Of a stretch of DNA of 64,000 bases, positions 17,130-21,052 are shown in pieces. The stretch spans positions 29,307 through 93,306 of the forward strand of contig JAQUPQ010000012.1 in the NCBI GenBank assembly GCA_028716525.1, read 5' to 3'. Source of the DNA: Terriglobia bacterium. Its GTDB lineage: Bacteria > Acidobacteriota > Terriglobia > JAIQFV01. Position 1 is the first letter of the stretch. Each line of letters opens with the position of its first letter. Under the pieces are notes generated by a model. The model saw only the letters and a program-made list of their open reading frames with translations. It was not told the DNA's origin and searched no databases. A program made the translations under genes and the position numbers.

Positions 17130-18638
17130 CTAAATCACGTTTCCAGTCGCGCCGTTGACGAGCACGACAGAGCCCAACGCGGGAAACTGCCAGTTCGAAA
17201 TCGGCGGGTCCGAGTGCGCGCCGTTCAGCGTGAAGTCGTCCAGCCCTGTTCCGATTTTCCTGACGCCAGGAATATCGCGGACAAGATTGAAGATGTCCGA
17301 GAGCGCAATCTCGCCGCACGGTAGGTCGTTGGCGTCGCGGTAGTTGTAGCCGAAATCAATGAGCGTGTTCGCGCTACCGTCTGACGACAGCGGGTTGAAA
17401 TAGGCCGCGAGTGCCGCGAGGATGGCCGTCTTCACCGACGTCGCCGAGTAGTTTGCCGCAATCCAGATGACCGCGCGCACGTCTACCGTTAGGTAGTTCG
17501 CTGTCGAGATGAGCACGCTGTAGTTTGTGAGCATCGGGTAGGTGACCGTGACCATCGTCTCGACCGCGTCAAGGAGCGCCTGGCTCGCCGTGCCGCCACC
17601 GGCCGGAACGACGTATAACCGCCCTTCCTCTTCCGGGATGGTGAGGTCTTCGTCACTCGACAGCATGAGAGCGCGAGCAACGGACGGCACTTCCAGCGCG
17701 TGCACCTCGAAATCGGACCTCGTGACGGTCGTTCTCGGTGCCGTGTTTGACAGCGGGATTTGCTGGCGAGCTGCGTTGACCGTCTCGCGCGCAAGGCCGC
17801 CAGATGCCGCCGCCGCGTTCGTCACCGAGAGAATGGCCTGAGTTCCAAACGAATCAGTGTAGGTCTTCCCGAATTTCTTGATGGTGTTCACGGCGACGTT
17901 CCCGGCCACGCCACCGCCGATCTTGTACGAAATAACGAATGTGCCAGTCGGCACCGCGCCGTTGACGCCGTCGCCGAATCGCACTGTCGCGCGGTCGTTC
18001 TGGTCTACGAGCACTTCGAAGTGGCGGTCTGTCGGTCCCGACAGCGCGAGAGAATCGACTTCCGTCCACGCGCCAAGGCCGGTCGAGAATGACACGGAGT
18101 CTTCGAGGTAGGGACCGTCCGACAGAAACACTTCCTGGTCGGCGTTGATGGTCGCCGTGTACGTCTGCGTTTTCGACTGACAGTGCCGCCACGAAAGCGT
18201 TGCCGTAGTCGCTCCAGCCGCCATGACGACCGTTGCTTGCACTTCGCCTATGACGGGATTGACGACGTCCTCGGTTTGCGCCTTGTCTCCGATGGCGAAT
18301 GTCACGTCGCCAGCGAGCGGGCCGTTGAGCAAGGTCACCGTCAAGTCACACGTTGCGGCCTGCGCTCCATACATCTCGTAGCTCTGGCGCTTCCCGAGCG
18401 CTATCATATCCCGGCGCTCCGTGGCCGTCGGGACGTAGGCACCGCGCGCCTTGCGCGTCATGTAGTAGTCGTTGACGGAGCTTGTCCAAGCCGACCCGCT
18501 ACGAATGACGTTCGCCATGTTGCGAGTCGTCGTATCCGTCCACGTGGGGAACACGGATTGAAACAGGCTTATCAGCCGAGCGTCAAGCGCCGGCTGGTCG
18601 CGTCCCGTGTAGTCGTAGGTTTCGGCCTCGAATGTCAC
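17130..18638 (-). CDS. Baseplate J-like protein
   Basis: N-term 'LDARLISLFQSVFPTWTDTTTRNMANVI', 'FEVLVDQNDRATVRFGDGVNGAVPTGTFVISYKIGGGVAGNVAVNTIKKF' and downstream region match baseplate_J proteins. Confidence 0.85.
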   Translation of the reverse strand: MTFEAETYDYTGRDQPALDARLISLFQSVFPTWTDTTTRNMANVIRSGSAWTSSVNDYYMTRKARGAYVPTATERRDMIALGKRQSYEMYGAQAATCDLTVTLLNGPLAGDVTFAIGDKAQTEDVVNPVIGEVQATVVMAAGATTATLSWRHCQSKTQTYTATINADQEVFLSDGPYLEDSVSFSTGLGAWTEVDSLALSGPTDRHFEVLVDQNDRATVRFGDGVNGAVPTGTFVISYKIGGGVAGNVAVNTIKKFGKTYTDSFGTQAILSVTNAAAASGGLARETVNAARQQIPLSNTAPRTTVTRSDFEVHALEVPSVARALMLSSDEDLTIPEEEGRLYVVPAGGGTASQALLDAVETMVTVTYPMLTNYSVLISTANYLTVDVRAVIWIAANYSATSVKTAILAALAAYFNPLSSDGSANTLIDFGYNYRDANDLPCGEIALSDIFNLVRDIPGVRKIGTGLDDFTLNGAHSDPPISNWQFPALGSVVLVNGATGNVI

Positions 18639-19033
18639 GCGGGCACCTCGTAGTCTATCCTGCCTTCGCCGCCGCTCCCATTGTACCGACGTTCGGAGTA
18701 GGCCGTCGATACCTGCAACTCACCACCCGTTCCAGTAGCCTCCGTTGTCCCAACTCGTATCCGATTGTCGAACGCAAGCGCCTCTTGCATGAGGTGTCCG
18801 GCCAATGCGGAGCGCGCCGTTTTCCCCACCTTCGTGTGCTTGAGCAGATGCAAGCGAGAGCCACGGTGCATGTCCCATGGGAGTTCCCCGCGTTTCGTTC
18901 CAACTTCCAACGTGAGGTCCATTTCGAGCAACCGAGTCCCTGTAGCCTGCTTCAAGTCGGTTGATGCGAAGCCAAACGGCATCGCCAATCCAACACCAAA
19001 CCGTCCTTCATCGTCGCCGGAAGTGGTTCTCAT
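18635..19033 (-). CDS. GPW/gp25-like baseplate wedge protein
   Basis: 132 aa, 'GLAMPFGFAS...TRLLEMDLTLEVGTKRGELPWDMHRGSRL', immediately before gpJ as in other myophages. Confidence 0.75.
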   Translation of the reverse strand: MRTTSGDDEGRFGVGLAMPFGFASTDLKQATGTRLLEMDLTLEVGTKRGELPWDMHRGSRLHLLKHTKVGKTARSALAGHLMQEALAFDNRIRVGTTEATGTGGELQVSTAYSERRYNGSGGEGRIDYEVPA

Positions 19034-20208
19034 TCTGACGAGACCTCCGCGCCTTCGACTCTCGCGTCTCCAGTCGCCGACCTGCGCCCCAGGTCGTAGA
19101 TGTTGCGCGCAGCATTCTCATCCCGGTCCATGACCAAGCCACATGCCGCGCAGTAGTGCGTTCGGTCGCGCAATGTCTTTCTCACCACGCTTCCACATCC
19201 CGAACATCTCTGGCTGGTACCCCTCGGGTTCACGCGCACGAACGGCAGCCCAGCTTCTTCCGCTTTGGCCGCGAGGTGCGTCCCGAACATCGTCCAGCCC
19301 GAATCCATGATGCCGCGCCGCAGACCACGCGCACCTTTCTTTGTCATTTCATCCGGCTCGTGCTCCGTACTCGACATCTCCTGAACGTTCAACTTCTCAA
19401 CCGCAAAACCGTCGTATCGTTTCACTAGAGTTGCCACCGTCTGATGAATGAAGTTGCGACGGCGGTTTGCGATTTTCTCGTGCGCGCGAGCGAGAACCAG
19501 TTTTGCCTTCCCTCGGTTCCGCGAACCCTTCCGCTTGTGACTCACTGATTGGCCAGACTCGCGTAGCTTATCGATACTCTTCCGCAAAAAACGCGGATGC
19601 TCAATCTGCGTGCCGTCTGACATCGTCGCAAATGTCCGCAGTCCAACGTCGATACCGACGCCGGTACTCGACTTCTTCAACGTCGGCGCGGGACCGATGT
19701 CCACCAGAAAATGCGCCCACCATCGAGTTGCGCCCCTCACAATCCGCAGTCCCTTGATCTCACCTTCACGGTAGATAGTGTTCCGCATCTGGAAAACAAT
19801 TGGGTCCTTCCTAACATTCAAAACGAGTTTCTTCCCGTCGATATGCCAATCCTGCGTTGTGAATGTCAGAGTGTCGAAACGCTCCCAACTTCGGAATCGT
19901 GGGAATCCAGGTTTCTCCCCGCGCTTGACGCGTCGAAAAAATCCATGAAATGCCTTATCTAGACGGTGCAGGACTGTCACCCGCGTCATCTGCGCAGGCA
20001 GATTTCTGTAGTCATCGTCGTCGGACCGCAACTGCGTCAGTTCTTTACATTGTTCATAGAACGAAAGTGAAACACGCTGTCGCTGCCACGCTTCCCGTCT
20101 CTGCTGGAGGGCCGCGTTGTACAACGCGCAGCATAGTCCGAGCACCCTCCGCAACTTTGCTTCCTGCTTTGGAGCCCGGCCCAACTTCACTTTGCACGCT
20201 CGAATCAT
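19030..20208 (-). mobile_element. tnpB: TnpB (IS200/IS605-type RNA-guided nuclease ORF), no tnpA, intact catalytic motifs
   Basis: 392 aa; RuvC-I 'GIDVGLRTFA', RuvC-II 'GFAVEKLNV', zinc finger 'CSGCGS...HYCAACG', RuvC-III 'MDRDENAARNI'; stop overlaps gp25 ATG (ATGA). Confidence 0.95.
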
Positions 20209-20247
20209 AGTTCTGACATTATCCTTGTTTCATAAAAATTAGAACTA
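20208..20247 (-). repeat. 7-bp inverted repeat TAGTTCT...AGAACTA bounding the tnpB start
   Basis: TAGTTCT at 20208..20214 and AGAACTA at 20241..20247, AT-rich loop of 26 nt; possible left-end hairpin or operator. Confidence 0.45.
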
Positions 20248-20263
20248 CTCCCTTGTATCGACC

Positions 20264-21052
20264 TCAACATTTCTCACCCTTGAGGAGTAGCGTTATCGCC
20301 ATCTCGGGGTCTGGTATCTTGTTCGCCAACTCTTCGAGCAACGCGGCCAGCATTCGAATCGCCGCAATGACGTCGTCGAGCACGGCTATGTCTTGCATCA
20401 TTGTACCAAAGCACGGAATCTCAGGCGCGCCGGAAATCAGCGACAGCATGATGTTGGCGAGCAGGATGATTCTGCCTAGCATCTGCAACGCCTGCGCCAA
20501 AGCGTCCATTTCGTCCGCCACGGTTTGCTCGGCGCATTGTAGGAACCCGCCCCACGTCACGTCGTTGAGGTCCGCCGCGCGGCTGATAGCCTGCGCCACG
20601 CGCGCGAGACGTTGCTTGAGGTAGTCTAGGTCATCAGCAAGTGACCGCAGGAACGCCGCAAGGTTTCGAATCAACTGAATGATGAGCCTCGGTATCGTCA
20701 ACTGCGGTATCAGCGAGAGCAGTTGATTGATTTTTTCTACGAGGTCCGGCACGCAATTGATGAGCCCGCTCGGGTCCAGTTTGGTGATGCAATCCGGTAT
20801 CGCTTCGATGCACTTGAAGATTGCGAGCGCTGTATCTAGAACATCGAAGAACGGTTTGAGCGGGGCCATCGCCGGGCCAATTTGCGCCAACTGCGCCATG
20901 ACGAGATCCGAGATTCGCGGGTAGTCGTCGGGCGGACGAATCGCGGACAAGCAGAATCCGCCGGGGAAGCAGATGTCATCGACGCTCCCGACCGGAGTCA
21001 GGAACGGACAGATGAGATCATTGACTGGCTTCCATACGTTAGGCGCTGCCAT
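20264..21052 (-). CDS. Helical baseplate-region protein of unknown function (262 aa)
   Basis: Long amphipathic helices, several Cys; between gpV-like and tnpB/gp25. Confidence 0.65.
   Translation of the reverse strand: MAAPNVWKPVNDLICPFLTPVGSVDDICFPGGFCLSAIRPPDDYPRISDLVMAQLAQIGPAMAPLKPFFDVLDTALAIFKCIEAIPDCITKLDPSGLINCVPDLVEKINQLLSLIPQLTIPRLIIQLIRNLAAFLRSLADDLDYLKQRLARVAQAISRAADLNDVTWGGFLQCAEQTVADEMDALAQALQMLGRIILLANIMLSLISGAPEIPCFGTMMQDIAVLDDVIAAIRMLAALLEELANKIPDPEMAITLLLKGEKC

Follow-up and report, generated by a model that had tools for sequence, protein, structure and literature searches.

TnpB is the ancestor of Cas12. TldRs, which are TnpB derivatives, are without nuclease activity, this having been lost. 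Group I introns and homing endonuclease genes, often associated with a nuclease, sit in important phage genes without destroying them. In ISDra2, an IS200/IS605 element of Deinococcus radiodurans, the guide RNA of TnpB spans the 3' end of tnpB, continues through the element's right end and takes in about 16 nt of the flanking DNA, and residue D191 was shown to be necessary for cutting; isolated tnpB elements are also already known (PMC8612924). Furthermore, the right end is a marker of the scaffold 3' end (PMC10278001), TldRs act as phage-encoded, TnpB-derived RNA-guided regulators (PMC13418256), and phage group I introns and homing endonuclease genes represent selfish DNA in phage genes (PMC3984707). 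TnpB genes are common in phages and were present in 405 of 50,697 phage records.

Here, we analysed a tnpB gene from a phage tail operon encoded on the minus strand of a 64,000-nt stretch of DNA (hereafter, the window; all window features below are on the minus strand). As the initial annotation had stated, the gene (19030-20208, 392 aa) lies between an ORF of the baseplate operon (20264-21052, 262 aa), intact in sister phages, and a gp25-like baseplate gene (18635-19033). We consider it probable that it represents a lineage-specific TnpB-only element of the IS200/IS605 type that was mobilised in trans and inserted where gp25 has its first codons; the empty sites, the element ends, the loss of the native start, the in-frame ATG of the right end, the conserved omegaRNA hairpin and the catalytic residues are shown by the sequence comparisons, and we infer in addition a translational relay and a homing-like retention. 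It should be added that the phage contig, of about 93 kb, was placed by binning in a 4.2-Mb prokaryote assembly; as the sister contigs are of similar size (86 and 93.5 kb), it may represent a near-complete phage genome.

The tnpB ORF is free of internal stops and its product matched the Pfam families OrfB_IS605 (E 6.9e-26), TNB/zinc ribbon (1.2e-21) and HTH_OrfB (1.3e-6), with the OrfB_IS605, Cas12f-like TNB and HTH domains all scoring above curated cut-offs. The RuvC residues D187, E271 and D363 were invariant in the protein and its 33 relatives (50-100% identity), as were the zinc-ribbon cysteines C335, C338, C353 and C356 (CxxC...CxxC), in agreement with the earlier claim that catalytic motifs and zinc finger were kept. 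Both sets of residues aligned with those of ISDra2 TnpB (profile E 1.8e-63) in matches to solved TnpB structures, and the two proteins share the family by sequence as well as the RuvC residues. Similarly to TldRs, the protein is TnpB-derived and phage-encoded; unlike them, it has intact catalytic residues and occupies a locus that is not conserved among relatives. An assignment to TldR or dead TnpB was ruled out, as the RuvC residues were not lost. As a TnpB, the protein would be expected to cut DNA under the direction of an RNA whose guide derives from the flank.

The gene was present as a single copy in the source assembly. No Y1 transposase (TnpA), the cis partner expected of an IS200/IS605 element, was found anywhere on the phage contig, so that the element was rightly described as TnpA-less, and no serine transposase or recombinase was found on it either; both types were present on other contigs of the assembly. 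An IS607-type insertion was ruled out by the lack of GG at the empty-site junction and of a serine recombinase on the contig. The closest TnpB relatives for which DNA was available, from L109 (70% identity, a 212-kb phage contig) and L110 (64%), had flanks unrelated to those in the window. Beyond these, no further DNA of the close TnpB clade was recovered (none above 44% identity in genome contigs, 297 genomes of the phylum and 400 genomes of the class), and the phage and plasmid records searched contained no TnpB of at least 60% identity.

Two IMG/VR phage contigs, L002 and L003 (93.5 and 86.3 kb), have this operon but no tnpB in it, their flanks being colinear with the window near the site at about 80-84% DNA identity. 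In both of them the upstream gene ends with TGTTGA, 7 nt ahead of gp25, which begins ATGAGCGA, and the blastn alignments between the window and these sisters break at 19017 and 20258-20259. A third, distant phage (L191, with a baseplate J protein 52% identical) also has no tnpB here; the absence from all three points to a lineage-specific insertion and tells against a domesticated core gene, for which vertical conservation of tnpB at the locus would be expected. The initial annotation had proposed domestication as one of two readings. A domesticated TnpB could have been recruited by the phage for regulation, for counter-defence or to exclude superinfection, and become fixed in this operon; the intact catalytic residues, the purifying selection and the seamless fit of tnpB in the operon speak for it. 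A dN/dS comparison of TnpB with the L109 relative, an analysis also suggested at that time, gave dN 0.22 and dS of about 2.2 (saturated), i.e. purifying selection; the same is equally expected of a working selfish nuclease, and therefore dN/dS is no argument for domestication. Together with the tnpB-less sisters and distant relative, the still recognisable ends of the element and a different TnpB located elsewhere in a sister phage make domestication very unlikely. The initial annotation had itself named as evidence to the contrary a recently inserted element with an end lying inside gp25, and the locus largely corresponds to this description.

To place the boundaries, the flanks of the window were joined at every pair of cuts and compared with both empty sites, searching for a gap-free fit. 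This alignment with tnpB-less phages, also suggested earlier, defined the inserted element as 19018-20252, about 1,235 bp, with boundaries certain to about 3 nt on either side: at the right boundary the best cut gave 24 mismatches and the next one 26, which fixes it only to about 3 nt. The joined flanks fit both empty sites without gaps and thus reveal neither target duplication nor deletion, within the same 3 nt or so. Upstream of the element, the position of the native gp25 start codon reads ACA in the joined flanks, and hence the native start is gone.

The right end (19018-19039), GTCAGAATGAGAACCACTTCCG, contains the stop of tnpB as well as the new start codon of gp25, and only 12 nt separate the tnpB stop from the right boundary. 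The right end reported as missing in the initial annotation is thus present, short and contained within the tnpB 3' end and the new 5' end of gp25. The 4-bp ATGA overlap noted there was confirmed at 19033-19030, where the tnpB stop TGA (19032-19030) shares bases with the gp25 ATG (19033-19031). The 16 bp spanning this overlap, GTCAGAATGAGAACCA, are identical after the tnpB stop of L110, whose TnpB is 64% identical and whose flank is unrelated; the counterpart in L109 is GTGAAATGGGAACTATG. Moreover, the motif is encoded where a TnpB frame extends into the right end of its element: without mismatches in P0031 (DENHTRW) and P0076 (LMRTIP), the fraction of 200 shuffled tails as good being 0.005 and 0.0, respectively; five other read-through TnpBs showed it with 1 mismatch and were singly not significant. 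The motif after the L110 stop and the read-through in P0031 and P0076 identify the ATGA as part of the right end of the element, which is predicted to encode now, in frame, the first codons of gp25. The junction is therefore not an ancestral feature that was preserved: of the earlier proposal of a precise insertion that preserves coupling, the in-frame retention of gp25 stands, and the ATGA itself was brought by the element.

The 16-mer occurred in 14 IMG/VR stretches, among which a TnpB was encoded only in that of L110. A multi-copy or MITE-like repeat was rejected on this ground and because the window has one copy. A search for the right-end pattern in 396 genomes returned few matches, and the control with the reversed pattern gave matches as well.

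The assignment of the interrupted gene relies on weak but consistent evidence: a PHROG match to baseplate (E 0.002) and PDB profile matches to gp25-like proteins only (E 0.012-0.13) point to a gp25-like gene. Its product begins with the element-derived MRTTS, and MRTTSG replaces the native M-S. Nine further members of the family have a full N-terminus (62-94% identity), and these begin with M-S/A/T or MATS; the N-terminus from the window is longer than in all nine, and MRTTSG starts none of them. The earlier statement that gp25 looks full length was true and also incomplete, as the N-terminus is extended and the native start codon gone. These sequences also bear on the alternative that gp25 already had the ATG and the MRTT codons before the insertion, in which case the element would end at about 19034 and the ATGA would be a chance product of precise insertion. 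Such a reading could draw on the fact that gp25 N-termini vary by a few residues; it is highly improbable, given that no gp25 homologue carries the motif and that the overlap motif is found beyond tnpB stops in other flanks.

The left end, of about 44 nt (20209-20252), contains GGGAGTAGTTCTAATT, which repeats the right end in imperfect, inverted form, and in L110 AGTGGTTCTCA stands at the matching distance (36 nt) from its tnpB ATG. Left and right ends share this imperfect inverted motif, and the right end forms a stem in the consensus of three sequences. From three left ends, no consensus for a transposon-adjacent motif (TAM) emerged. Two mini-ORFs were also observed in the left end (20206-20233), forming an overlap chain into tnpB, ATGAAACAAGGATAATGTCAGAACTATGATT (TAATG, then ATGA).

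The 3' part of a predicted omegaRNA scaffold (19018-19100) overlaps the tnpB 3' end. In the consensus fold of the window, L109 and L110, 8 pairs were changed on both sides, including three pairs of a conserved 7-bp hairpin, CGACCTGGGGCGCAGGTCG (19078-19096), which are compensatory in the three sequences; the covariation refers to three sequences only, with the 3' part of the MAFFT alignment imperfect for L110. A covarying structure that runs from the 3' end of tnpB into the right end, as expected for an omegaRNA, is thus predicted. Folded alone, the RNA end from the window was not better than shuffles (z about -1), and no known omegaRNA from Rfam matched. According to the published guide rule (PMC8612924, PMC10278001) and the position of the right boundary, the native gp25 codons that come first past the junction (18998-19017) would serve as the guide. 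Its first bases match the empty alleles of L002 and L003 incompletely, so that cutting of these sister phages is uncertain.

The predicted guide is also relevant to the route of arrival. Instead of a transposase, homing could have delivered the element, with the flanks co-converted by homologous repair after TnpB had cut an empty gp25 allele. The lack of TnpA on the contig and the location of the guide within gp25 would suit such an event; however, the incomplete match of the first guide bases to the empty alleles and the lack of any known donor phage carrying this insertion render it unlikely.

Most likely, a TnpB-only element moved by TnpA in trans entered just after the gp25 start codon. 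The right end would then have provided an in-frame ATG that overlaps the stop of tnpB, and the native start, no longer needed, would have decayed. Ribosomes finishing tnpB may start gp25 at the right-end ATG, aided by GGAGG (19044-19048), a Shine-Dalgarno-like sequence inside tnpB and the omegaRNA 10 nt before the gp25 ATG, which is also found in the tnpB 3' ends of L109 and L110. RNA structure was predicted to occlude the gp25 start no more strongly than at the empty site; the empty site being about equally structured, folding gives no support for tight tnpB-gp25 coupling, and start occlusion was rejected as proof of it. As to persistence, TnpB-omegaRNA guided by the gp25 5' end would cut a site that has become empty again, with repair restoring the element, which would amount to a homing-like retention. 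The insertion in an essential-looking phage tail gene appears to leave the gene readable via the start codon of the element.

Similar arrangements were seen at other TnpB loci. In the sister phage L002, a different TnpB (33% identical; L226, 1216-2760) sits where an AAA/SMC-type ATPase gene starts and separates two genes adjacent in the phage of the window; in the latter phage, the ATPase gene is uninterrupted (about 60127-61416) and the matching empty site lies at 61400-61440. To the left of the L002 TnpB, the native ribosome-binding site and ATGGGGAAG, with the native ATG, are still present; to its right, the tnpB stop shares bases with a new ATG (TGATG), from which the ATPase gene continues in frame. 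In L109, the gene after tnpB (4187-4711) starts with MGTMSRVYKG and an 89% identical homologue with MRVYKG; the homologues, P0133 to P0138, compared at the protein level, are without the MGTMS extension. The start-codon pattern hence comprises two cases at the DNA level and one at the protein level. Among 156 distinct TnpB loci, 37 had an ORF of at least 60 aa that starts between -12 and +5 relative to the tnpB stop, with chance ORFs included in this mechanical count, and five annotated phage TnpBs had no annotated start/stop overlap with the next gene. Judged from the sequences compared, the stop/start arrangement is recurrent and not universal. For the TnpB-abutting genes of L112 and L154, no homologues were found in phage records, and IMG/VR returned L154 only itself. 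Separately, L003 contains a 3'-terminal remnant of yet another TnpB (L227, 1264-1812), which suggests repeated TnpB gain and loss in this phage group.

It is conceivable, and we put it forward tentatively, that the right ends of some phage TnpBs have evolved into translation relays, with a ribosome-binding sequence and an ATG on the tnpB stop restoring the interrupted gene from codon 2, and that this happened on two or more occasions, in TnpBs of sister phages that are divergent from each other. The start-codon pattern could, without special design, result from selection against disruptive insertions.

The element itself is of a known kind and what is unusual is the right end as a replacement gene start, of which our limited literature search found no published description. 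In comparison with ISDra2, the element has no tnpA partner, extends 12 nt past the tnpB stop and has a right end that doubles as the start of a host gene; in comparison with group I introns and homing endonucleases, it does not splice, and the gene is kept by a new start codon. The relay reading predicts that gp25 begins with MRTTSG, that its translation needs translation of tnpB and that the guide comes from gp25. If true, a relay right end would let the element settle in essential genes at their start codons; introns and inteins offer a parallel, although here it is the start codon that is acted upon. A start-rewriting end would be a simple answer to how TnpB persists in compact phage genomes without a transposase, and would bear on how TnpB genes join operons ahead of any domestication.
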